Shown here piece by piece: positions 352-34,168 of a stretch of DNA of 37,732 nucleotides (position 1 is the stretch's first letter; each line of letters begins with the position of its first letter). A program made the translations under genes and the position numbers. The notes under the pieces were generated by a model. It did no database searches and was not told the DNA's origin. It worked only from the letters and a program-made list of their open reading frames with translations. The stretch spans positions 1 through 37,732 of the forward strand of contig SCRJ01000193.1 in assembly GCA_004298115.1 (NCBI GenBank), in the 5' to 3' direction. Source of the DNA: Acidobacteriota bacterium. GTDB lineage: Bacteria; Acidobacteriota; Thermoanaerobaculia; Thermoanaerobaculales; Thermoanaerobaculaceae.

Positions 352-1831
352 CACGCTGCAGCAGGCCGCCATCCTCCTCGAGAAGACCGTCATTTCCCAG
401 CAGCACACCATCGCGAGGTTGAAGGTCGAGATCGCCCAGCTGCGCGGCGAAGGTGTCCCCGCCCAGCTCGAGCTCGACCTCTTGAAGGAGCAGCTCGAGG
501 CGCTCAAGAAGAAGGTCTTCGCCCCGTCCTCGGAGAAGCGCCCGCAGGACGGGGAGCCAGGCGCGCCGTCAGCACGCGAGCCCCGCCGCGGCCACGGTCC
601 CAAGGCGCAGCCCCTCCTGCCGGTCTCGACCGTCACCCACACCCTGCCCGAGGACGAGCGCACCTGTCCGGTGTGCCAGGGCCGGTTGGAGCCGATGGGC
701 GAGCAGAGCGAGGACTCCGAGGAGATCACCGTCATCGAGGCGTCCTACCAGGTCGTCACCCACCGCAGGCAGAAGTACCGCTGCTCGTGCAACGCCTCCG
801 TGGTCACCGCGCCGGGTCCGGTGAAGCTCACGCCTGGCGGGCGCTACTCGCCCGAGTTCGCCGTCCACGTCGCGGAAGCCAAGTACCTCGACCACCTGCC
901 GCTGGAGCGCCAGGCGCGGGCGATGGGGCGCAAGGGTCTGGACACCGACGCCCAGACGCTGTGGGACCAGCTCATGGCCCTGGCCAAGCACCTCACCCCC
1001 ACCTACGAGGCGCTGTGCGAGCAGGTGCTCGGCTCGGACGTCGTCTTCATGGACGAGACGCACTGGCGGCTGATGGACGGCGACGGCAGCCACCGCTGGT
1101 GGACGTGGTGTGTCGCCAGCGATGAGGCGGCCGCGTACTGGATCCGGGGGCAGCGGTCGAAGGATGCGGCCGTGGACGTGCTCGGCGCCTTCGAGGGTGT
1201 CCTGATGTCGGACGGCTACGCGGTGTACGAGGCGCTCGCCCGCGGGGCGCCGGGGATTCGCCCGGTGCACTGCTGGGCGCATGTGCGACGAAAGTTCATC
1301 GAGGCGGAGAGCCCGTTCCCCGAGGAGTGCCGCAAAGCGATTGACTGGATTGGCGAGCTGTACGAGGTGGAGCGAGAGGTGCCGAAGCTCCCGCGCGATG
1401 CCCCGGAGAAGGCTCGTACCGAGGCGTTGGCGTTGCGAGCGAGGCTGCGCGACGAGCGCTCGCGCCCGATCATCGAGGCGCTGCGGAGCTGGGCGTACGA
1501 GACCAAGCCGGCCACGCTGCCGCAGAGCTCGCTGGGCAAGGCGATCGAGTACATGCTCTCTCTGTGGCAGGGGCTGACGGTGTTTCTGACCGATGCTCGC
1601 GTGCCCCTGGACAACAACGCGGCGGAGCGGGCCCTGCGTGGGGTCGTGGTCGGACGGAAGAATCACTACGGCTCGCACTCCAAGCGCGGCGCCGAGGTCG
1701 CGGCGATTCTCTATACGCTGTTCGAGAGCGCGAAGCTCGCCGGCGTCGACCCGCATCGCTACGTGCTCGAAGCGACCCGCCGCGCGATCGCCTCGCCCGG
1801 CACCGCGACGCTCCCCCAAAACGTCACCTGA
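305..1831 (+). CDS. tnpC: IS66 family transposase TnpC
   Basis: This 508-residue DDE transposase catalyses cutting and joining of the element ends. Order of parts: an N-terminal coiled-coil-like leucine-rich region (about residues 15-75), a Cys-rich zinc-binding segment (CPVC at 121-124 and CSC at 160-162), then the RNase H-like catalytic domain. The catalytic residues fit Asp250 (FMDETHW), Asp303 (MSDGY) and Glu441 (NNAAERALR). The C-terminal pattern GRKNHYGSHSKRGAEVAA is typical of IS66. Length is normal and no stop or frameshift is visible, so the transposase may be active. The start is TTG at 305; in-frame codons slightly downstream could serve instead. Confidence 0.93.
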   Translation: MRLLRVPRLEQIRDVDTLQQAAILLEKTVISQQHTIARLKVEIAQLRGEGVPAQLELDLLKEQLEALKKKVFAPSSEKRPQDGEPGAPSAREPRRGHGPKAQPLLPVSTVTHTLPEDERTCPVCQGRLEPMGEQSEDSEEITVIEASYQVVTHRRQKYRCSCNASVVTAPGPVKLTPGGRYSPEFAVHVAEAKYLDHLPLERQARAMGRKGLDTDAQTLWDQLMALAKHLTPTYEALCEQVLGSDVVFMDETHWRLMDGDGSHRWWTWCVASDEAAAYWIRGQRSKDAAVDVLGAFEGVLMSDGYAVYEALARGAPGIRPVHCWAHVRRKFIEAESPFPEECRKAIDWIGELYEVEREVPKLPRDAPEKARTEALALRARLRDERSRPIIEALRSWAYETKPATLPQSSLGKAIEYMLSLWQGLTVFLTDARVPLDNNAAERALRGVVVGRKNHYGSHSKRGAEVAAILYTLFESAKLAGVDPHRYVLEATRRAIASPGTATLPQNVT

Positions 1832-1917
1832 TCGGACTCGACGCAGATCCTCAGCCATTCAGTCAAGACATACCCTTGGGGTAGGGCGAGGACTTACTTT
1901 CCTTCAAAGACTACCTG

Positions 1918-2532
1918 GTGGCGTTCCAGTGCGGGCACGTGCTGCGCCTCCTCTCGCTCCCTGAACCGGAGCGGTTCCAGTTCGCGACGCGCAGCGCCGC
2001 AACCGAATGGGGCGCGCGGCTTGTCAGGGCCTTCTGGAAGAGCTCGGGACGGCCAACGCCCCCCGACCCGGTCCTGGCGACCGTCACGGAACAGCTTGTT
2101 TCGGGCCTGTTCACGCAGCTCCGGTCGATCCCGATCGGAATGCGGATCGACGCCTGGCTCGCTGCCGACTACCGCGCTCTTGCTGATCAGCAAGCTGAAG
2201 CACTCGCAGCGCAGCAAGAGGAGGCGCTCTCCTGCCTAAGCCCCCAGATCCGCGCCATGGTCCCGGACGAGATCGTCTCGGCAAGCATCCTCCTCAACAC
2301 CGCCTACGCGCTGTTCTGCGACCGTCTGCTCGGGGCCACGCAATACCACGTGCCCTACGCGGCCTCCGGTTTCAATAACCTCGGCGAGGCGCTCCTCAAG
2401 ATTTTCGACGAGCTGCCCACCGGGCCGTCCTCGGACCGTGCCCTCGTCGACCGCTGGGCTCGAGAGATCGGCCTCGACGGCAAGTACACCTGGGTGCCAC
2501 TGGCGTTCGCTACTTCAAGCGTGCCGTCGTGA
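1918..2532 (+). CDS. C-terminal fragment of an unknown protein cut by the IS66 element
   Basis: The frame is open from 1885, directly after the probable IS end. It reads SFKDYLVAFQCGHVLRLL and continues for about 210 residues to a stop 7 bases before the next gene. GTG at 1918 is the first start-like codon but has no convincing ribosome site. The sequence begins in the middle of a helical domain, so I read this as the 3' part of a gene whose 5' end is on the far side of the element. I do not recognise the family. It is largely helical, with a conserved-looking stretch TQLRSIPIGMRIDAWL and no evident catalytic motif. Its spacing to the TPR gene makes it the first visible member of the 1918-6436 cluster. 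Confidence 0.6.
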   Translation: MAFQCGHVLRLLSLPEPERFQFATRSAATEWGARLVRAFWKSSGRPTPPDPVLATVTEQLVSGLFTQLRSIPIGMRIDAWLAADYRALADQQAEALAAQQEEALSCLSPQIRAMVPDEIVSASILLNTAYALFCDRLLGATQYHVPYAASGFNNLGEALLKIFDELPTGPSSDRALVDRWAREIGLDGKYTWVPLAFATSSVPS

Positions 2533-2539
2533 GGATCTC

Positions 2540-3631
2540 GTGAGACCACCGATCAGATTCACCGTTGCGAGGGAGTTCCTCCCGATCCAAATCGCCCCGA
2601 GCGATCCGCGGGAGCTTGAATCCGCTTCGTTCCTCGAGGCCGCGAAGCGTTTCTACGAGAGCCAGTTCGAAGACGGCACCGTCGAGGTCAAGTCAGTCCC
2701 CGGTGGCTTGGAGGTGACCTGGGCGCCTGAAGAAGCCGGTCTCGATCCCTTCGAGTACGCCGTCGAACTCCTGCAGAAGAGGCAATACGAGGTTGCTGTC
2801 CCGTTCCTGCAGCACCTCCTGGACGACGAGCCTGATCACCCGGGAGTTCTGTTCAATCTTGGGATGGCGGAGAGCGACCTCGGCAAGCTCGACGACGCCA
2901 TCGTCCACCTCAAGACCCTCGTTGAGAAGGATCCAAAACACGGCCACGGTTGGGTCGCCCTCGGGGTCGCCCAGGCCCGGGCGGGGCAGATCGATGATGC
3001 GATCGCGGCGCTCAACGAGGCGGTGCGTATCGTTCCGGACGACCCCTACGCGCGGCGCAACCTCGGTGCGTTGTTGGGCAAGAAGGGGCTCCTGGCTGAC
3101 GCCTTGACGCACCTGCGCGAGGCGGTGCGGCTGCTTCCGGCCGACCAGCAAGCGCTTTACGGCCTGGCGCACACCCTCCTGACGCTGGGCGGTGACGACC
3201 AGGTGGCCGAGGCCGATGGGCTTTTCCAGAGGGCGGTCGCCATTGACCCCGAGAGTGACGTTGCGGAAGTCTGCCGCAAGGAGCGCGGCCAGATCGCGCA
3301 ATGCGCGTTCCGCGCCAACGCCGGTGGCCATCTCCGGATGGACGCCGTCATGTACTGCCTTGGGGCGATGCGGACCTTCGCGAAGCTGTCGAAGGAGGAC
3401 GTCCGCAAGATCGCCTTCGAGATCGCCATGCTCGGGACGAAGGGTCTCGACGTGAACGACCCGGCCCAGAAGTACCAGCTCCGCTCGCTCCCGGGCCGCT
3501 TCTCCGGCCTCCACCTCGTATCGATCGAGTACGTCGGTTTCAAGCTGGTCGATCCGTCCGTCGACCTCGGCTTCGACCTGTCACAGGAGTATCGCCAAGC
3601 TCAGCTTCTCTTCGGGGGCTCGGGAGGGTAG
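2540..3631 (+). CDS. tetratricopeptide repeat (TPR) protein
   Basis: A 363-residue protein. Residues about 70-245 form around five TPR units, recognised from A-E-LL-x-Q-AV and LG-A--GK-DDAI spacing (for example FNLGMAESDLGKLDDAIVHLKTLVEKDP). TPR solenoids bind peptides or partner proteins, so this is probably the scaffold or sensor of the cluster. The N-terminal 65 residues and the last 110 (GGHLRMDAVMYCLGAMRTF onward) are not recognised. GTG 2540 is preferred because GAGG lies just upstream and the longer frame would overlap the previous gene by about 95 bases. The stop is 2 bases before the MazG-like gene, indicating one transcript. Confidence 0.8.
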   Translation: MRPPIRFTVAREFLPIQIAPSDPRELESASFLEAAKRFYESQFEDGTVEVKSVPGGLEVTWAPEEAGLDPFEYAVELLQKRQYEVAVPFLQHLLDDEPDHPGVLFNLGMAESDLGKLDDAIVHLKTLVEKDPKHGHGWVALGVAQARAGQIDDAIAALNEAVRIVPDDPYARRNLGALLGKKGLLADALTHLREAVRLLPADQQALYGLAHTLLTLGGDDQVAEADGLFQRAVAIDPESDVAEVCRKERGQIAQCAFRANAGGHLRMDAVMYCLGAMRTFAKLSKEDVRKIAFEIAMLGTKGLDVNDPAQKYQLRSLPGRFSGLHLVSIEYVGFKLVDPSVDLGFDLSQEYRQAQLLFGGSGG

Positions 3632-3633
3632 CC

Positions 3634-3978
3634 ATGGGTCTTGAAGCGCTCACCGCTCGCGCCAACGCCATCAGGGACGCCCGGGACTGGCGCCAGTTTC
3701 ACAACCCAAAGGACGTCATGCTCTCCCTGTGCCTGGAAGCGGCCGAACTCCTGGAACACGCCCAGTGGCGCAACGGTGACGACCTGAAGGCCTATCTGGC
3801 GGAACACCGGGACGAGGTGGGCGAGGAGCTGGCCGACATCCTCTACTGGGTGCTCGTGCTCTCCGACGACCTCGGGATCGACCTCGAGGACGCCTTCCGG
3901 CGCAAGATGGACCTCAACGAGCAGCGCTATCCGGTGGACAAGGCCCGCGGCAAGGCCACGAAGTACGACAAGCTGTAG
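3634..3978 (+). CDS. MazG-like nucleotide pyrophosphohydrolase
   Basis: A 114-residue all-alpha NTP pyrophosphatase of the MazG/RS21-C6 (dCTPase-like) superfamily. These enzymes hydrolyse (d)NTPs to the monophosphate plus pyrophosphate. The metal-binding pattern is present: EAAELLEHAQW supplies the first acidic helix (E-x2-E) and EVGEELADILYW the second (E-x2-E-x2-D). Length matches the single-domain subfamily. The ATG lies 2 bases after the TPR stop, and the gene ends 10 bases before the nuclease-helicase gene, so it belongs to that unit. In this context it could deplete or cleanse nucleotides during infection or stress; that role is inference. Confidence 0.88.
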   Translation: MGLEALTARANAIRDARDWRQFHNPKDVMLSLCLEAAELLEHAQWRNGDDLKAYLAEHRDEVGEELADILYWVLVLSDDLGIDLEDAFRRKMDLNEQRYPVDKARGKATKYDKL

Positions 3979-3988
3979 GAACGCGGCG

Positions 3989-6436
3989 ATGCAGCTCTAC
4001 TGCGGCACGACCACCCAGTTCGTCGACGACACACTCCAGAACCGGATTACCGGTAGGCTCGAGGAAGCTTTCTTCACCCATTTCCGCTACCGCCCTTCTC
4101 ACAGCGAGGTGAACTCCTGGCGGAACTCCCTGCGGGCCATGTGCAACGTCGTCCAGTACGCCCGGCTCGACGACAACGGGCTCGTCTTGGAGTACCAGCT
4201 TCCCCTCACGTCGAAGCGCCTCGATTTCATGATCACAGGCCGCGACGCGCGGGGTGCCGCGAACGCGGTGATCGTCGAGCTCAAACAGTGGTCCGAGGCT
4301 CAGGCCAGCAATGTGGACGGATGTGTGGCGACCTTCGTCGCCGGAGCGGTGCGAGACGAGCTTCACCCGTCCGTCCAGGTCGGGCAGTACCACCAGTACC
4401 TGGAGGACTTCAACCCGGTGTTCTCCTCAGGGGACGTCACCCTGAGCGCCTGCAGCTACCTCCACAACTGGTCCTTTGACGCCAGGAGCGAGTTCTTTTC
4501 TTCCCGGCACAGCTCGGCCATCGCCCGGTACCCCCTGTTCGCCGGGGACCAGACCACCGGGCTCGCGACCTTTATGACGAGCCGGGTGGACCGCGGCGGC
4601 GGGTCCGAGGTCCTCCAGACCGTGCTCCAGAGCAAGTACAAGGCGAGCAAGAAACTCATGGAACACGTCGCTGGCGTGATCGCCGGCAGGCCCGAGTACG
4701 TGCTGCTCGACGAGCAGCTCGTCGTCTTCGAGACCGTGCTCGGCCTTGCGCGCTCGGAGCTCGACGGCCCGCGCCGGACGGCGCTCATCGTGAAGGGCGG
4801 GCCGGGCACCGGCAAGTCGGTCATCGCCCTGAACCTCATGAGCCGCCTGCTGCGCGACGGGTTCAACGCCCATTACGCGACCGGCTCGCGGGCGTTCACC
4901 GAGACGCTCCGGGCGATCATCGGCCGCCGCGGCGCGCCTCAGTTCATGTACTTCAACTCGTACGGCGAGGCCGAACCGGACGCGATCGACGTCCTGATCT
5001 GCGATGAGGCCCATCGCCTCCGCAAGCTGAGCGGAGACCGCTTCCGGCCGAGCCGCACCGGAAAGCCGCAGGTCGAGGAAATTCTCAACGCCGCCAAGCT
5101 CGCCGTGTTCCTCATCGACGACCGCCAGGTCGTGCGTCCGAACGAGGTCGGTTCCTCCGCCTACATCCGGGAGCATGCCGAGCGGCTCGGCTGCGAGGTG
5201 CGGGAGCACACCCTCGAAGCGCAGTTCCGGTGCGCCGGTTCGGACGGGTTCGTGAACTGGATCGCCAATACGCTTGCCGTGGAGCGAACGGCAAACGCGA
5301 TCTGGGAGGGCGACGAGCGGTTCGATTTCCGGATCTTCCCGTCCCCAGAGAGCCTCGAGCAGGCCATCCGTGCCCGCGCGGCGCAGGGCCACTCGGCGCG
5401 TCTGGCGGCGGGGTTCTGCTGGCCATGGTCGAAGCCGAACCCCGACGGCACCCTCCTGGATGACGTCGTGTTGGGCGACTGGCGCCGGCCCTGGAACGCG
5501 AGGCCGGAAGCGAAGAGGCTTGCGGCCGGCATCCCGAAGGCTCAGCTGTGGGCGCACGAACCGGGCGGGCTCGATCAAGTCGGCTGCGTTTACACCGCCC
5601 AGGGGTTCGAGTTCGACTATATCGGGGTGGTCTTCGGCCGCGACCTCCGGTACGACATGGACGCGCAGGCCTGGATCGGCGACCGGAAAGCCTCATTCGA
5701 CCGACCCGTCAAACAGGGTGGCGAAGCCTTCATCGACCTGGTCAAGAATACCTATCGCGTGCTGCTCTCCCGGGGCCTCAGGGGCTGCTACGTTCACTTC
5801 GTGGACCGCGACACCGAGCGGTTCTTCCGCACCCGCATCGACGGACGGGTGGCGGAACCTCGGCTCGACGAGTTGCTGGCGGCGCCGACCGCGGTTGAGC
5901 CGGAGCATGTCGAGCCGTTCCGGAGAGTCCCACCAGGGGACGTCCGCCCGTTCGAGACGTGTGTGCCGCTGTACGACCTCGCGGTGGCGGCCGGTCGGTT
6001 CTCGGACGCCCAGGCGATCGACGAGGTTGGCCTGGGCGATGAAGACCGCCGAGCCGGAGATTTCACCTGGGTCGAGCTGCCGGAGGCGTTTCGGCCGCAG
6101 CGCGGTCTCTTCGTCGCACGGGTCGTCGGAGACTCGATGAACCGCCGGATCCCCAACGGCGCCTGGTGCCTGTTCCGGCGCGCGTCCGCGGGCTCGCGAA
6201 ACGATCGGGTCGTCGTCGCTCAACACAGAGACATCGCGGACCCGGAGACGGGCGGCCGGTTCACCGTGAAGGTCTACGAGAGCAAGAAGGAGCGGCTGCC
6301 CGACGGCTCGTGGCGCCACACGTCCATCGTTCTACGACCGGACACGACCGCGGCCGGGTACGAGCCGATCGTCCTGGCGCCCGAAGCCGCCGCCGACCTG
6401 CGGATCGTGGCTGAGCTTGTGGCCGTTCTCGGCTGA
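3989..6436 (+). CDS. PD-(D/E)XK nuclease - DUF2075 helicase - S24 peptidase fusion
   Basis: An 815-residue multidomain protein. Residues about 60-130 carry a PD-(D/E)XK nuclease core (Asp79 in KRLDFM; Glu97 and Lys99 in VIVELKQW). Residues about 250-640 are a DUF2075/Schlafen-group-3-type superfamily 1 helicase: Walker A GGPGTGKS with Lys276, Walker B DVLICDEAHRLR, later motifs YTAQGFEFDYIGVVFG and NTYRVLLSRG. Residues about 700-815 form an S24/LexA-UmuD-like serine peptidase domain with Ser716 in VVGDSMN and Lys761 in FTVKVY, the expected Ser-Lys pair. The protein could therefore cut nucleic acid, translocate or unwind, and self-process or signal on DNA damage. It is the last gene of the TPR-MazG cluster. 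All key residues appear intact. A defence role is inferred from domains and neighbours. Confidence 0.88.
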   Translation: MQLYCGTTTQFVDDTLQNRITGRLEEAFFTHFRYRPSHSEVNSWRNSLRAMCNVVQYARLDDNGLVLEYQLPLTSKRLDFMITGRDARGAANAVIVELKQWSEAQASNVDGCVATFVAGAVRDELHPSVQVGQYHQYLEDFNPVFSSGDVTLSACSYLHNWSFDARSEFFSSRHSSAIARYPLFAGDQTTGLATFMTSRVDRGGGSEVLQTVLQSKYKASKKLMEHVAGVIAGRPEYVLLDEQLVVFETVLGLARSELDGPRRTALIVKGGPGTGKSVIALNLMSRLLRDGFNAHYATGSRAFTETLRAIIGRRGAPQFMYFNSYGEAEPDAIDVLICDEAHRLRKLSGDRFRPSRTGKPQVEEILNAAKLAVFLIDDRQVVRPNEVGSSAYIREHAERLGCEVREHTLEAQFRCAGSDGFVNWIANTLAVERTANAIWEGDERFDFRIFPSPESLEQAIRARAAQGHSARLAAGFCWPWSKPNPDGTLLDDVVLGDWRRPWNARPEAKRLAAGIPKAQLWAHEPGGLDQVGCVYTAQGFEFDYIGVVFGRDLRYDMDAQAWIGDRKASFDRPVKQGGEAFIDLVKNTYRVLLSRGLRGCYVHFVDRDTERFFRTRIDGRVAEPRLDELLAAPTAVEPEHVEPFRRVPPGDVRPFETCVPLYDLAVAAGRFSDAQAIDEVGLGDEDRRAGDFTWVELPEAFRPQRGLFVARVVGDSMNRRIPNGAWCLFRRASAGSRNDRVVVAQHRDIADPETGGRFTVKVYESKKERLPDGSWRHTSIVLRPDTTAAGYEPIVLAPEAAADLRIVAELVAVLG

Positions 6437-14657: not shown

Positions 14658-15069
14658 GATCGGACATCAGAGGACGCGCGCCCTGCGGTCGCGCCCCAAA
14701 TCGAGACGGGGCGGTGTCTTGCTTGTGTGGGGCTCGCGCGGCGCGCGAGCTTCTTCTTGCCCTCCGGAGGGTCGAGCTCGTGCGTCATGACCTCGACGAC
14801 AGCGCGCCCGGCGGTCGCCGATGCAGCCGTCGTTCCCGCGGACGCGGGAACCCAGGTCCTTGTCAATGCCAACGCGAAGCCTTTCCCCTCGATCTCGTCG
14901 TGGCGCCTTCGGCGACCTCGAGGTTGGCATACGGCGAGTAGAGACGAGATTGAACTGTCGCTGCGCTCCTCGGCATAGAAATTGCCGCCAGCGTATGATT
15001 CTTGGGCAACAGGCGGGAGAAGTCGTAGTGATCGGCCAGAGGCTCTGAGCACGGGAATGGGGGCACCAT
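14658..15069. other. repeat-filled intergenic region
   Basis: No gene is supported here. It contains a copy of the GCGCG-rich palindromic repeat ending CTTCTTCTTGCCCTCCGGA (about 14725-14767), a perfect 9-bp hairpin GTTCCCGCG/CGCGGGAAC (14832-14851), and a 41-base fragment (14900-14940) about 80% identical to 19450-19490 inside the DUF2779 gene. Confidence 0.6.
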
Positions 15070-16081
15070 GTGACAGATGAACTCGTCAATCGCGGCGGCA
15101 AGGTCGCTTTCTTCGAAGCGCCTGACGGGCGGGTTCGGCTGGATGTGCGCCTGGAGCGGGAGACCGTCTGGCTCTCGCTCTCCCAGATGGCCGAACTGTT
15201 CGGGCGCGACAAGTCGGTGGTCTCCAGGCACTTGCGGAACGTATTTTCGTCCGGTGAACTGGAGCGAGGAGCAGTTGTTGCAAAAACTGCAACAACTGCC
15301 TCGGACGGCAAGACCTACCAGGTCGAATACTTCAACCTCGACGCCATCCTCTCGGTTGGCTACCGCGTCAACTCAAAGCGCGGAACGCAGTTCCGCATCT
15401 GGGCGACCCAGACGCTGCGCGATCACCTGCTGCGGGGCTTTACGCTCAACGAGCAGAGATTGCGTGAGAGTGGGCTGCGTGAGATCGAGCAAGCGGTCGG
15501 GCTGCTGGCCCGCACGCTCACCGCCCACGCTTTGGTCACCGACGAGGGGCGGGCGGTGCTGGCAACGATCCAGCAGTACACGCGCGCCTGGCGCTGGTTG
15601 GTGGAGTTTGACGAGGAGCGGCTGGCCGCGATCCCCACAAACCCAGTTCTTCCCACAGCCAGCCTGTCTCCGAAGGCAGCCCGCGCGGCCATCCTCGATT
15701 TGCGCGCGTCGCTCGCCGCTCGCAAAGAGGCGAGCACACTCTTCGGCCAGTAACACGGTGAGCAGCTCAACGGGATTCTGGGCGCCATCGAACAGACGTT
15801 CGACAGGGCGCCGCTGTACCCGACAGCGCAGGCTCGGGCGGCTCACCTCCTCTACTTCGTCATCAAGGGCCACCCCTTCGTCGATGGCAACAAGCGCATC
15901 GGCGCTCCTGTTCCTGGACTACCTGCGGCGCAATGGCCTGCAAACACATGCGGACGGCAGCCCCCGTTTCGCCGACAACGCGATGGTCGCACTCGCGCTC
16001 CTCGTGGCCGAGAGCGAGCCGGCGCAAAAGGACTTGATGATTCGCCTGGTCCTCAACTTGCTCGAAGACACCTTGGAGTGA
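15070..16081 (+). pseudogene. RhuM-Fic family protein, inactivated
   Basis: Frame 1 (15070-15753) encodes 227 residues of the RhuM-like N-terminal domain (WLSLSQMAELFGRDKSVVSRHLRNVF). It stops at TAA 15751-15753, exactly where FGQ should continue into HGEQLNGILGAIEQTFD. Past the stop the same frame reads the intact Fic core HPFVDGNKRIG. A 2-base loss near 15903 then shifts the frame so that ALLFLDYLRRNGLQ continues in frame 2 to 16081. The ancestor was therefore a RhuM-Fic fusion; Fic domains usually AMPylate proteins. One C-to-T nonsense change plus one small deletion make it a recent pseudogene. A truncated RhuM protein could still be made. Confidence 0.85.
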
Positions 16082-16728
16082 TCAGAGCCTTGGCGGATTC
16101 TGTCGCCCAAGAGACCGCGTTTGCCGCGCTCGCGCAGCGGCAAGGTGCGATGGCCGGTTGGCGAGCACCCCGCGCATGAAAACTCGGAGATCGGCTCCGA
16201 GTTGTCAGTCCCCCTCGGTTCGGCAGCGCTCATCAGGATGAGGTTGTAGCGAAATCCGCCGACCGGCCGTCGGCAATCATCCGGTCTCGAAGGAGCACCG
16301 GCGGCCCGCCTTCGGCTGTTCCATACGACCGCGCCCTGCGCACACGAAGGGAACGGGAGGGGCCCGGGACGATCCCGACGTGGTGCTACTTGTCAGTCGG
16401 ATTGCCAAATAACCCCACGGTAGTCTCCCTGGGGTGGGGCGTGACGACTGCACAGGAACGACGACTGAACGACAGCGTCTCGTTGTTGTCCGCGTGCACG
16501 CGGCTGCCCGCCGCGATCCAGGCCAGTTCGCAGAGCGGATCCAGCAGCCCGGCCATGCTCATGGTGTCGCCGGCGCAGAAGGCGCAGTTGGTGCGGTTGC
16601 GCGGCACGGGCATCGCGACCTCCGTCTGCCGCGAGGATAGCAACGCCGGACCGGCGGCGCGCTCCACAGGAACGCAGGCGATGGCCGGGCCGGGCCCTGG
16701 TGTGCTCGTGCGGGGCCGGCGCGGCGCG
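16082..16728. other. non-coding region with a DUF2779 3'-end remnant
   Basis: About 650 bases without a supported gene. Beside the hairpin at 16181-16203, positions about 16518-16585 are roughly 80% identical to the 3' end of the DUF2779 gene (19299 onward). On the minus strand this reads CAFCAGDTMSMAGLLDPLCELA against YCAVDTMSMVRLLERLRELA in the intact gene. The stop codon of the ancestor has become TGG. Confidence 0.6.
16181..16203. terminator. perfect 9-bp hairpin downstream of the Fic remnant
   Basis: AACTCGGAG and CTCCGAGTT pair without mismatch around ATCGG. It lies about 100 bases after the Fic stop. There is no T-run, so its function is uncertain. Confidence 0.35.
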
Positions 16729-18009
16729 CTAGACGACGAACATCGCGATGCCCGCCGCGAACATCGCCAGCGTCGTGAAGCCCACGACCACGCGCCCCAG
16801 CCACGAACTCGGCTGGCCGCGCATCAGCTTGCGGTCCGACGCGGCGTGCAGGATGCCGATGAGCAGGAACGGCGCCAGGAGGCCGTTGATCACCGCCGTC
16901 CAGTAGAGCGCCTTTACCGGGCTGATCCCCGCGAAATCGATCGCGACGCCGATCGCGATCGAAACCGCGACGACGGTGTAGAAGGCGCGCGCCCGGTTGA
17001 ACCTCTCGTCGATCCCCTGCCGCCAGTTGAACGTCTCGGCGAACGCGTACGCGGCGGAACCGGCAAGCGTCGGGATCGCGAGCAGTCCGGTCCCCACGAT
17101 GCCGATCGTGTAGAGCAGCATCGCGAAACGGCCCGCCAGCGGAACCAGCGCGGCCGCCACGTCGGCCGAGGTCGCGAGCTGCGTCTGGCCGTGCGCGTGC
17201 AGCGTGCTGGCCGTCGTCACGATGATGAAGAACATCGCGACGTTCGAGAACAGCGTGCCGAGCCCGATGTCGATCTTCCGGTCGCCGATCTCCGTCTTCG
17301 TCGCCCCCTGTCTCGCCCTGAGGGTGAGGTGGCCGGCCGCCTTCTCCTCCTCGACCTCCTGCGACGCCTGCCAGTAGAAGAGGTAGGGGCTGATCGTGGT
17401 CCCGAGGATCGCGACGAGCGTCGCCCACGCCTCGCGGCCGTGCGGCAGGTTGGGCACGACGGTCGCGCGCAACACGGCCCCCCAGTCGGGATGGACGTCG
17501 ATGGCCGCGACCACGTAGACCGCCAGGATGAGCGCCAGCCACTTGAGGGTGTTGGCGATGACCGCATAGCGGAGGCGGATCGTCGCGATCGTGATCCCGA
17601 TGCCGCACGCGAGCACCCAGACGACGGCCGGCACGCCGGTGAGCAGGTGGATCGCGTCCGCCATCCCGCCCAGGTCGGCGCCGACGTTGATGGTGTTGGC
17701 GACGAACAGCGCGCCGGCGGCGGTCGCGAGCAGCCACCGCGGGTACTTGTGGCGCAGCGCCCCGGTCAGCCCCTGGCCGGTGACCAACCCGATCCTCGCG
17801 CACATCTGTTGCACGGCCGCCATCAACGGCCAGAGCACCGGCGCGGTCCACAGGAACTTCGTGCCGAACTGCGCGCCGGTGATGGAGTAGGTCGCGATCC
17901 CCGACGGGTCGTCGTCGGCGGCGCCGGTGATGACGCCCGGCCCCAGCGCCGCCGCGATGCGGCGCAGCGCCGAGCGTTTGAGCGGGGCCTTCGACTTGGT
18001 CTTTGCCAT
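16729..18009 (-). CDS. NRAMP-family divalent metal transporter, non-canonical
   Basis: A 426-residue inner-membrane protein with about 11 hydrophobic segments and the NRAMP layout starting LGPGVITGAADDDPSGI. The two metal-site signatures differ from classical NRAMP: TM1 has DPSG (Asp34) instead of DPGN, and TM6 reads ISPYLFYW where the classical motif has MPH. The metal-binding Asn, Met and His are therefore changed. NRAMP-related magnesium transporters are known to have lost such residues, so Mn/Fe transport should not be assumed. It is transcribed alone, divergent from the toxin-antitoxin pair, with repeats on its upstream side. Confidence 0.88.
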   Translation of the reverse strand: MAKTKSKAPLKRSALRRIAAALGPGVITGAADDDPSGIATYSITGAQFGTKFLWTAPVLWPLMAAVQQMCARIGLVTGQGLTGALRHKYPRWLLATAAGALFVANTINVGADLGGMADAIHLLTGVPAVVWVLACGIGITIATIRLRYAVIANTLKWLALILAVYVVAAIDVHPDWGAVLRATVVPNLPHGREAWATLVAILGTTISPYLFYWQASQEVEEEKAAGHLTLRARQGATKTEIGDRKIDIGLGTLFSNVAMFFIIVTTASTLHAHGQTQLATSADVAAALVPLAGRFAMLLYTIGIVGTGLLAIPTLAGSAAYAFAETFNWRQGIDERFNRARAFYTVVAVSIAIGVAIDFAGISPVKALYWTAVINGLLAPFLLIGILHAASDRKLMRGQPSSWLGRVVVGFTTLAMFAAGIAMFVV

Positions 18010-18116
18010 GCGGGTATCGTGCTGCCGCCATCATAGATGACCCGGCTCGAGCGCTTCCGGCCGGCGCGAGCACCAAAGCGGGGTGAGCAGGACCCAGGGG
18101 CAAACGGTTGGGGACG

Positions 18117-18224
18117 GGATTGCTTCGTCCGCCTCACTACGCTCGGCGTCTTCGCAATGACCGTGGGTCCCCAGTGTCATTGCGAGCCACGCCGCAGGCG
18201 GGGCGAAGCAATCTCGGGGTCACC
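18117..18224. repeat. two CATTGCGAG palindromic modules
   Basis: Two inverted modules: GATTGCTTCG...CGCAATGACC (about 18117-18163) and GTCATTGCGAG...GAAGCAATCTC (about 18174-18224). Each carries its own short variable inner region. They belong to the same repeat family as those inside the DUF2779 gene and at 33892-34168. Confidence 0.8.
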
Positions 18225-18259
18225 GACGGACGCCGGGACTCCTCGTCACCGGCCGTGGT

Positions 18260-18416
18260 CTACGCCAGCTCTCGCAGCCGCTCCAGCAGCTCGACCATGC
18301 TCATGGTGTCGACGGCGCAGTAGCGGAGGAGGGCGTCGCGAAGGTGCTGCTTGTCGGCGGCGGTCATGGTGTCGCCGTGGAACAGCAGGCGCTCGAGCTC
18401 GACGGCGGTGGTGGCG
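18260..18416 (-). pseudogene. detached copy of the DUF2779 3' end
   Basis: About 157 bases roughly 88% identical to 19299-19455, including the TAG stop. On the minus strand it encodes the same C-terminal segment, LLFHG through RYCAVDTMSM to RELA, which carries the third exonuclease motif. Similarity stops abruptly at GTGGCG. No upstream part of the gene is attached, so this is a duplicated fragment. Confidence 0.78.
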
Positions 18417-18499
18417 AGTCGCCTGCCGAGGCGATCGCCACGAAAGATGATCGTTCAGCCGCACTTGACAATTCATCAACTATAGCGCGAGAATCAATT

Positions 18500-18814
18500 G
18501 TGGCCGGCAAGGGAGGCGATCCCACGACGCGGCTCGGTGTGCTGGAGGCCAGAAAGTTGTTGACCTGGATCCTTCCGCACGGCTCGGTCGTCTTTTCCGG
18601 GCACGCGCGACGGGAGATGGACGATGACGACCTCAACGAGCCTGACGTGGTCAACATCCTGCGGGCCGGCATGATCGCCGACGCACCCGACTTCGAACGC
18701 GGCACCTGGCGCTATCGGGTGGAGACGGATCGGATGTGCGCCGTTGTCAGCTTCAACGGCCGCTCGGAGGTCGTGGTGGTGACGGTTTGGCGGAAGAAGG
18801 GGCGTGGCCGATGA
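18500..18814 (+). CDS. DUF4258 (MqsR-like) toxin
   Basis: About 104 residues. The core VLEARKLLTWILPHGSVVFSGHARREM, then DVVNILRAGMI, then TWRYRVETDRMCAVVSF and VVVVTVWRK, fits the DUF4258 toxins that pair with MqsA-type antitoxins. These belong to the RelE/MqsR-like RNase fold. The ATGA overlap with the next gene shows coupling. The start is uncertain: GTG 18500 is chosen, but GTG 18539 (VLEARK) also fits the family length, and neither has a good ribosome site. TTGACA (18465) and TATAGC (18481) lie upstream but only 10 bases apart, so the promoter is unclear. Confidence 0.8.
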   Translation: MAGKGGDPTTRLGVLEARKLLTWILPHGSVVFSGHARREMDDDDLNEPDVVNILRAGMIADAPDFERGTWRYRVETDRMCAVVSFNGRSEVVVVTVWRKKGRGR

Positions 18815-19302
18815 GCAAGAAGCGGTGTTCGATCTGCGGCAAGGGGGCGTTGGAGATCAGACGCGAGCCTCGCCGCTACGGGTGCGGGATCGACGTGATC
18901 CTCGTGGACATCGAGGTCCGCCACTGCCCGGCGTGTGGCGAGGAGTTCGAGGTCATCCCCAACATCGAGCGGCTGCATCAGGCCATCGCCCGGGACCTCG
19001 CCAAGTCCGACGCGCGCCTGCGCGCCGGCGAGATTCGCTTCCTGCGCACGTACCTCGGGTACTCGAGCGTTGACTTTGCCCGGCTCATGGGCGTGAGTCC
19101 GGAGACGGTGTCGCGGTGGGAGAGCAAGGGGGCGCCGAAGCGGATGGCGCTGTCGGCCGAGCGGCTGCTGCGCCTGATGGTGCTCCAGAACGAGCCGATC
19201 CGTTCCTACGGGCTCGAGGGTGCGGGGGCCAGCGAAGGACCGCCGGCGCAGCCGCTGCGTCTCCGGGTCACGCCCACCGGCTGGGAATCCGCCGCGGCCT
19301 AA
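18811..19302 (+). CDS. MqsA-family antitoxin
   Basis: A 163-residue antitoxin and regulator. The N-terminal zinc domain has CxxC pairs (Cys6/Cys9 in CSICG, Cys39/Cys42 in CPACG). The C-terminal half is an XRE-type helix-turn-helix (FLRTYLGYSSVDFARLMGVSPETVSRWESKG). It should neutralise the upstream DUF4258 toxin and repress the operon. AAGGGG precedes the ATG. The stop codon overlaps that of the convergent DUF2779 gene by 4 bases (19299-19302), leaving no room for a terminator between them. Confidence 0.9.
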   Translation: MSKKRCSICGKGALEIRREPRRYGCGIDVILVDIEVRHCPACGEEFEVIPNIERLHQAIARDLAKSDARLRAGEIRFLRTYLGYSSVDFARLMGVSPETVSRWESKGAPKRMALSAERLLRLMVLQNEPIRSYGLEGAGASEGPPAQPLRLRVTPTGWESAAA

Positions 19303-21116
19303 GCCAACTCGCGCAGTCGCTCCAGCAGCCTGACCATACTCATGGTGTCGACGGCGCAGTAGCGGAGCAAGGCGTCGCGCAGGTGCGCTCGCTCGGCGGC
19401 GGTCATGGTCTCGCCGTGGAACAGCAGGCGCACGAGCTCGACGGCCGCGGTGGCGCCTTCGGCAACTTCGAGATCGGCGTAGGGGGAGCGGGAAGGGGAT
19501 TGATTCGTCCCGGGTGAGGGCGGGTTCGGAGGGGTTGGCGGTGACCACGAGATTGCTTCGTCGTCCCGCCCGTCGGCGGGACTCCTCGCAATGACCGGTT
19601 GTGCGGAGGAAGGAGGCGTCGCAGCGATCGTTCCCTCCTCTGTCATTGCGAGTCCCGCCGCAGGCGGGACGAAGCAATCTCGAGGTCCTGGGAGGGACGG
19701 TGGGCACCCAGTTGGGGACGGGATTGCTTCGTCGTCCCGCCCGTCGGCGGGACTCCTCGCAATGACAGTGGGGTCGGACGGGATTGCGTCGTCGCTTCGC
19801 TCCTCGCAGTGACCGGAAGGGGTGGGACGACCCGCAATGACAGCGGGGACGAGGGCGGGGAGGACGGACTTGAGGCTGAAGCTGCCGTGGAAGTCGGGGT
19901 GGTAGACGTGCGCGCGGACGATCGGCAGCGGGTCGGCAAGCCGCCCGGCGATGGCGAGCAGGTCGTCGGCAAGCTCGGGCACGGCGTCGGCGAGGCGCTC
20001 GATGCAGCCGCGCTCGAAGCCGGCGTTGTAGGCGACGACCGTGCGGGCGCCGGCGCACGCCGCGACGAGCGCGCGCGCCAGCTCCGGGCGCGGGTCGCCG
20101 GGGCCGTCCGCGAGCCACTCGTGGTGCACGAGCGTCTCGCCGGCGGCCTCGACGTCGAAGCTGAACTGCACCGGCACCTGCTCGTACGGGTGGCAGCCCT
20201 CCCACACCGGGATCGCCGGGGCGACGGTCTCGAAGTCGAGGAACGCGAGAGGCGAATCGAAGACGCGCAGCGCCCGGTCGAGGCCAGGCTCGACGACGAT
20301 GCGTCCGGTCAGCACAGCCTCGCGCTGGCGCGCCTGGACGGCGTTGAGGCCGTCGGCGGGCAGCTCGGCGATCGTCTCGAACCCGGCGGCGATCAGCGCC
20401 GCGCCGCCGTGCGGCGCGCGGTAGAGCGTGCTGACGTGGTGCTCGGGCACGCCGGCCCAGCAGCGGCTCATGAACGGGCACTCGTACGGCTTGGTGCAGT
20501 GCTCGCCGATCGGCACGTCGGGGAGGCCGCCCGCGAGCATGCGCAGCTGGCCGGCGATCAGCTCCGGCAGCTCGGGCTGCCACGCCTCGGCCGCGCCGGT
20601 GACGTCCTCGCGGACGAAGAGGTCCTCGAGGTCGGGGAACGTGCACTCGCGGTTGAGGTGCATCAGCTCGGCGCCCTCGACGTCGAGGCCGGCGGCGCGC
20701 AGGACGTGGAGCTGGACCGCGACGTCCGGGATGTGCTCGTCCTTGATCCTGGTGGAGGACTTCACCTCGATCAGGCGGAAGCGGTCGCCGTCGCGCTCGA
20801 GGATGTCCACCGCGGCATAGACGCCGCCCGAGTCGAACGACGCCTCGTAGACCGCCGGGACGCGCTGCTCGAGCAGGCGCTTCGTCGTCGCGAGCCGGCG
20901 GGCGAAGGCGTTGTGCGGCGCATCCACCAGCGCCCCGCCGGGCACGTACGTGCGCGCCACCTCGCCAACGCGCGTGCCCTGGTCGAACACCGCCTGCTGC
21001 GCCGGGGTCGGGACCAGCTCCGGCGCGTCCGGCTCGTGCACCTTCCACCACAGCTGCTTGTGGCACTGGAGCCCGGCCGTGAACCGGGTCTTCGACAGGC
21101 GGTATCGGCTGGCCAT
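19299..21116 (-). CDS. DUF2779 protein: Cas4-like nuclease fused to DEDD exonuclease, with repeat insertion
   Basis: A 605-residue protein. Residues 1-220 resemble a Cas4-type PD-(D/E)XK nuclease: Asp104, then Glu117 and Lys119 in LIEVKSS, with Cys18, Cys207, Cys213 and Cys219 positioned for an iron-sulfur cluster. Residues about 290-605 are an RNase H-fold exonuclease (DUF2779): LDFET (Asp294, Glu296), VAYNAGFERG and YCAVD (Asp590). Between motifs two and three, residues about 426-543 are low-complexity and contain VIARSPADGRDDEAI twice; this is the translated CATTGCGAG repeat. The insertion keeps the frame and adds about 118 residues. The protein presumably degrades nucleic acid; its biological role is unknown. 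Confidence 0.85.
   Translation of the reverse strand: MASRYRLSKTRFTAGLQCHKQLWWKVHEPDAPELVPTPAQQAVFDQGTRVGEVARTYVPGGALVDAPHNAFARRLATTKRLLEQRVPAVYEASFDSGGVYAAVDILERDGDRFRLIEVKSSTRIKDEHIPDVAVQLHVLRAAGLDVEGAELMHLNRECTFPDLEDLFVREDVTGAAEAWQPELPELIAGQLRMLAGGLPDVPIGEHCTKPYECPFMSRCWAGVPEHHVSTLYRAPHGGAALIAAGFETIAELPADGLNAVQARQREAVLTGRIVVEPGLDRALRVFDSPLAFLDFETVAPAIPVWEGCHPYEQVPVQFSFDVEAAGETLVHHEWLADGPGDPRPELARALVAACAGARTVVAYNAGFERGCIERLADAVPELADDLLAIAGRLADPLPIVRAHVYHPDFHGSFSLKSVLPALVPAVIAGRPTPSGHCEERSDDAIPSDPTVIARSPADGRDDEAIPSPTGCPPSLPGPRDCFVPPAAGLAMTEEGTIAATPPSSAQPVIARSPADGRDDEAISWSPPTPPNPPSPGTNQSPSRSPYADLEVAEGATAAVELVRLLFHGETMTAAERAHLRDALLRYCAVDTMSMVRLLERLRELA
19547..19814. repeat. four CATTGCGAG palindromic modules inside the DUF2779 gene
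   Basis: Modules lie at about 19547-19595, 19641-19687, 19720-19767 and 19780-19814, in alternating orientation. Each pairs a GTCATTGCGAG end with a GAAGCAATC end around a short hairpin such as TCCCGCC...GGCGGGA. They fall within the coding frame and create no stop codon. Confidence 0.85.
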
Positions 21117-33891: not shown

Positions 33892-34168
33892 TGTCATTGC
33901 GAGGTTCCCGAGCGGAGCGAGGGAACCGCGGCAATCTCGAGGTCGCCGCTGGGTACCTCGGCATCGCGGCCGGCACGAGATTGCTTCGTCGGTGCTCGCT
34001 GTGCTCGCACCTCCTCGCAATGACCGGTTTTCCCCCGGTCATTGCGAGGTTCCCGAGCGGAGCGAGGGAACCGCGGCAATCCCGAGGTCATCGCGGGGCA
34101 ACTCGGCATCGCCGTCGGCACGAGATTGCTTCGTCGTCCCGCCGTTGGCGGGACTCCTCGCAATGACC
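33892..34168. repeat. tandem pair of CATTGCGAG composite palindromes
   Basis: Two units of about 132 bases (33892-34025 and 34038-34168) are near-identical over most of their length. Each starts GTCATTGCGAGGTTCCCGAG and ends CTCCTCGCAATGACC, so each is bounded by inverted ends and has hairpin arms inside. Only the inner part of the right arm differs: GTGCTCGCTGTGCTCGC in one and a TCCCGCC...GGCGGGA hairpin in the other. They fill the 498-base gap 33756-34253 together with GC-rich spacer. Confidence 0.85.

Follow-up and report, generated by a model that had tools for sequence, protein, structure and literature searches.

The loop between the second and third exonuclease motifs of a DUF2779 nuclease gene has probably been colonised in frame, and recurrently, by REP-like palindromic repeats within one acidobacterial genus. 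The case belongs with the intragenic REP insertions known from other phyla (PMC3733652), and shows them in an unusually clear and recurrent form. The gene lies in a stretch of 37,732 nucleotides (the window, here always at its full length), which is contig C60 of genome G000 (3.97 Mb, 203 contigs). The genomes compared are MAGs only, and the contigs fetched from G003, G005, G007 and G008 match public Acidobacteria MAG records without a difference (palsa_272, WY1.bin89, 37-71-11 and fen_297, respectively). An earlier note, based on the letters of the window alone, had reported a stop-free repeat insert of about 118 residues at 19488-19841 and likened it to the palindromic elements of Rickettsia (RPEs): the observation is right, and the interpretation is right on in-frame insertion and loop tolerance, but wrong on the closest parallel.

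Members of DUF2779 are RNase H-like, presumed 3'-5' exonucleases carrying a DUF83 or PD-(D/E)XK-like partner domain (PMC3985635). The window gene (hereafter exo) matches the profile PF11074 (DUF2779), and its product associates a Cas4-like PD-(D/E)XK part with an RNase H-like exonuclease domain, so that the PF11074 domain, the conserved acidic motifs and the Cas4-like partner expected of the family are all present. Its predicted structure resembles Cas4 and MGME1, with a weaker match to RNase T and exonuclease I. In an alignment of 51 sequences, every invariant column is kept in the window protein (including D104, E117, K119, the Cys residues, D294 and E368), and the near-invariant Asp590, taken as motif III, is positioned after the insert. 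The gene was found in six of nine genomes of the genus and in none of the eight other genomes searched in the family, its nearest homologues elsewhere being mostly from Gemmatimonadota, and this distribution suggests a horizontal gain by the genus. The features of the gene and of its insert are as follows:

19299-21116, minus strand: DUF2779 nuclease gene, a single open frame of 605 aa
19485-19847, minus strand: expanded loop, 363 nt versus 9 nt in G008, between helices 415-422 and 554-570
19833-19841, minus strand: repeat head remnant (GTCATTGCG)
19782-19812, minus strand: degenerate CATTGCGAG copy, read HCEERSDDAI
19722-19765, minus strand: CATTGCGAG copy, read VIARSPADGRDDEAI
19643-19679, plus strand: inverted CATTGCGAG copy, read DCFVPPAAGLAM from the gene strand
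19551-19594, minus strand: CATTGCGAG copy, read VIARSPADGRDDEAI, identical to 19722-19765
19496-19509, minus strand: repeat tail remnant (GACGAATCAATCCC), which corresponds to the old end of the repeat in G003 and G007
19302-19484, minus strand: C-terminal 183 nt with motif III (Asp590), constant in length in five species

Relative to the insert-free gene of G008, the net insert amounts to 354 nt (118 codons), stop-free and confined to one place, which bears out the size and position first reported. It is made up of four CATTGCGAG hairpin repeats, one of them inverted and the other three in the orientation of the gene, along with head and tail remnants. The repeated peptide module seen in the earlier reading, VIARSPADGRDDEAI, is indeed present exactly twice in the protein; HCEERSDDAI and DCFVPPAAGLAM correspond to the same repeat in another frame or on the other strand, so that one repeat is given three readings in a single gene. 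The two copies read as VIARSPADGRDDEAI are identical across the 44-nt unit and lie 171 nt apart, suggesting a local duplication. The predicted RNA fold of the insert reaches -174.7 kcal/mol, far more stable than that of dinucleotide shuffles (z = -6.3).

Outside the genus, the site is 12-13 residues long in all 47 stop-free homologues measured, a count from which four others were left out for internal stops within the fetched range. These sequences span bacteria and archaea (Gemmatimonadota, Cyanobacteria, Verrucomicrobia, Bacteroidota, Woesearchaeota and others). The earlier note had said that a loop of the same length but unrelated sequence in distant organisms would refute its reading, and none of the 47 has one. 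Within the genus, the site measures 13 residues in G008, 60 in G003, 75 in G007, about 85 in G001 and 131 in the window species, the inserts thus adding 47 to 118 residues. The corresponding loops are 363, 225, 150, 195 and 9 nt long in the five species (363 in the window, 9 in G008, and 225 in G001, whose value comes from a partial gene). The part preceding the loop is constant at 1269 nt in the four complete genes, and the reading frame is open in every insert-bearing species. Since three other species bear repeat inserts at this very point, the insert is unlikely to be an artefact of a single assembly. These lengths form a natural series at one point, against a constant length of the compared remainder of the gene, and lend themselves to asking how intergenic repeats turn into protein. 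G008 branches outside G003, G000 and G007 with a support of 87/87, G001 being too partial to place.

The repeats found at this site are short imperfect palindromes of 25-49 nt, present in many dispersed copies. Four families were distinguished: A (CATTGCGAG), B (TCTGTGGAGCGCGCGC...), C (GTAGGGGCGGGGCTTGCCCCCGCC) and D (CATTCTGAG type), family C alone starting with GTAG and family A having neither a GTAG nor a CGTC terminal tag. A strict pattern for family A (TCATTGCGAG-N5-35-GCAATC) has 26-27 copies in G000, eight of them inside the window, and 4 to 72 copies per genome in eight other genomes of the genus; the inner stem of these copies varies while its pairing, judged by eye, is kept. The reversed control pattern has none in any of the nine genomes, and the occurrence of the repeat in the window is therefore not due to chance. 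At 33894-34166 of the window, four CATTGCGAG copies of alternating orientation form a 145-nt direct duplication in an apparently intergenic position. A literature search with the repeat motif string returned chance matches only.

Where do these repeats reside in the genome? About 209 copies of families A to D were surveyed in fetched stretches of six genomes, using an approximate codon model seeded with selected, mostly family-supported genes, and nearly all of them are intergenic. In-frame copies were found in five genes, exo included, and this approximate in-gene count is a lower bound, as the final scan missed at least three known cases (the imuA tail of G001, imuB of G006 and the window exo array). 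Apart from exo, these genes are imuA, imuB, metH and a pyruvate-formate-lyase-like (PFL-like) gene. In imuA, a compound inverted pair of family C is read in frame in G000 and G003 (at the tail in G003), and the in-frame tail of G001 is made of family A and another repeat; a probable imuB of G006, named from its place beside imuA, has an in-frame repeat seen by eye, and a Pfam search with this fragment gave no match. The imuA and imuB stretches lie in L190 (2394-3266), L200, L194 and L197. An in-frame family D copy occupies the linker of the methionine synthase gene metH in G006 (L206, ORF 2386-5886, aa 878-887), and a family C copy lies in the PFL-like gene of G008 (L240, ORF 1425-4085, aa 630-637). 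Four other in-gene fuzzy matches (C189:11415, C109:42672, G003:C139 and G008:C40) were judged to be chance two-mismatch matches, and a supposed imuA relic at G003:C182:2486-2635 proved to be no gene fragment but two family C copies inverted to each other, which form a compound repeat.

Three of the five genes with in-frame copies, counting exo, are DNA-processing genes. In other phyla, REP insertions within genes tend toward DNA-repair genes (Di Nocera and colleagues, PMC3733652), a repair gene being in some species the sole gene with such an insertion, and the recB genes of X. campestris and X. oryzae carry different REPs at roughly the same position (same source). An apparently strong preference for repair genes weakened once metH and the PFL-like gene turned up; the present sample is too small to claim an enrichment, and lends thin support to the reported tendency.

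At the exo site, at least four dispersed families are represented across the genus, and the loops of G001 and G007 decompose into pieces that match dispersed repeats. In G001, G003 and G007 alike, a family C repeat stands ahead of one of family A, and in the window the loop-end relic at 14900-14953 is likewise preceded by a repeat tail. This GTAG-then-CATTGCGAG order looks ancestral. Given the shared order and the branching of G008 outside G003, G000 and G007, the simplest history, read from degenerate pieces, would be a single ancestral C-A gain followed by additions, family C having later been lost in the window species; alternatives to consider are several separate gains, or a loss of the insert in G008. 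Under the proposed history, the ancestor of the insert-bearing species would have gained a compound repeat (a GTAG-tagged palindrome, then a CATTGCGAG palindrome), and later lineages would have added, duplicated or lost copies, with B added in G001, D in G007 and four CATTGCGAG copies in the window species, where family C would have been lost. Since motif III is downstream of the insert, only changes that keep the frame and introduce no stop would survive. The result would be a disordered, putatively mostly neutral passenger, and the density of repeats at the site would stem from loop tolerance and from recombination or slippage between resident repeats, rather than from a repeat that prefers genes.

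The end of the gene has its own record of rearrangement. Fragments of the exo 3' end recur downstream in the same orientation, bracketing small gene modules, in the window, in G003 and on contigs of G007:

Window, order of features: exo, a DUF4258/MqsA toxin-antitoxin pair, relic 18252-18416, an NRAMP gene, relic 16507-16581, a RhuM-family gene with an early stop, relic 14900-14953
G003, order of features: exo, an AAA/DUF4143 ATPase, relic, an AbiE pair, relic
Regions with relics: window 14900-19455; L038 7547-11352; L037 3126-3168; L042 1660-5517

Past its stop codon, relic 18252-18416 is followed by sequence similar to that beyond the intact exo of G003, as if this relic were the original gene end, displaced by a module that arrived with a new one. 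The arrangement looks like an insertion hotspot at the gene end that restores the exo 3' end, and no integrase was noticed among the genes examined. The RhuM-family gene (PF13310, 15070-16081) has a stop near 15754, with its likely C-terminal part in another frame, and appears broken.

Could the loop itself be a true insertion hotspot, with an independent new transposition in each species and no ancestral insert? The families differ between species, and the relics show that the neighbouring gene end collects insertions too. However, the GTAG-then-CATTGCGAG order and the tail motif are common to three to four species, and the insert-free G008 branches outside G003, G000 and G007, making separate transpositions unlikely. 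A more far-reaching reading, in which the loop is an active site of repeat turnover, with gain, duplication and swapping across species, and the encoded segment alters the action of the nuclease, is considered rather improbable; if it were true, one enzyme would repeatedly draw new protein sequence from extragenic repeats.

The dN/dS ratios (0.14-0.44 before the loop and 0.14-0.56 after it) are below 1 on both sides. With the frame open and both flanks under purifying selection, the in-frame insertion between motifs II and III proposed earlier holds, and we infer translation of the gene right across the insert. The ratio is slightly high in some pairs involving the window species (0.44 against G003 in the N part), and a mild relaxation is possible there. 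AlphaFold gives a pLDDT of 90-98 to most of the core, and below 50 to residues 427-448 and 458-540, which are flanked by confident helices; the model points to a disordered loop on an intact enzyme fold, in agreement with the earlier suggestion that the insert sits in a loop and that the enzyme may still fold.

A decaying pseudogene or a cut-off product, with repeats landing in dying DNA, would fit the lack of the gene in some genomes of the genus, the rearranged locus marked by the 3'-end relics and the upper dN/dS value in the C part. This is improbable, as four species, each with an insert of its own, keep the frame open, selection is visible on both sides of the loop, and the invariant residues are retained. 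Conversely, the repeat-encoded loop might have been put to use, for example in binding a partner or nucleic acid, and be kept by selection: it is long in four of the five species compared, and DNA-repair genes recur among in-gene cases both here and in PMC3733652. Yet its length and sequence are different in each species, disorder is predicted, and G008 manages without it, so that such a role is very improbable. A mobile gene-targeting repeat that encodes a peptide, as proposed for RPEs, could account for an in-frame insertion in a conserved enzyme and for the few other genes affected, but is scarcely credible with copies nearly all intergenic, one repeat with three readings in exo, and several unrelated families at a single site.

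Taken together, these observations show that REP-like repeats are inserted in frame in an uncultured genus of acidobacteria as well. Where VIARSP..DEAI, VGAGLAPAR or similar peptides turn up in its annotated proteins, they can be flagged as translated repeats.

Among known systems, the nuclease agrees with the DUF2779 proteins of PMC3985635 in its two-domain architecture, and differs from the homologues outside the genus by the length of its site (131 residues versus 12-13). RPEs, of about 105-150 bp, are often found within genes, where the peptide that they encode is conserved (PMC10969869, PMC2229807). The parallel drawn in the earlier note stands insofar as a palindromic repeat is placed in frame in a conserved enzyme gene and apparently tolerated, and fails elsewhere: here the units are shorter (25-49 nt), almost all are intergenic and several frames are read. 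By the two features tested, the repeat is not an RPE: it seldom enters genes and does not encode one particular peptide.

REPs of the GTAG families can flank the gene of a tyrosine transposase (RAYT). The genome has two RAYT-like genes, which fell below the NCBIfam cut-off as tested, and no copy of families A to D was found flanking them, within about 1.5 kb; a RAYT as the mover of these families is thus unsupported. One REP-associated tyrosine transposase-like gene (L036, 1395-2519) has 23-nt terminal inverted repeats of its own (GGTACCTGGTACC...), unrelated to families A to D.

The closest match is with the intragenic REPs of the GTAG and CGTC families, which are also short palindromes, mainly intergenic, often alternating in orientation and sometimes in frame within genes; family C here has GTAG at its start. 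The present case differs from them in that at least four families are gathered in one loop across one genus, that up to 118 residues are added, compared with 43-82 in the clusters of PMC3733652, and that the main family, CATTGCGAG, lacks the GTAG or CGTC terminal tag.
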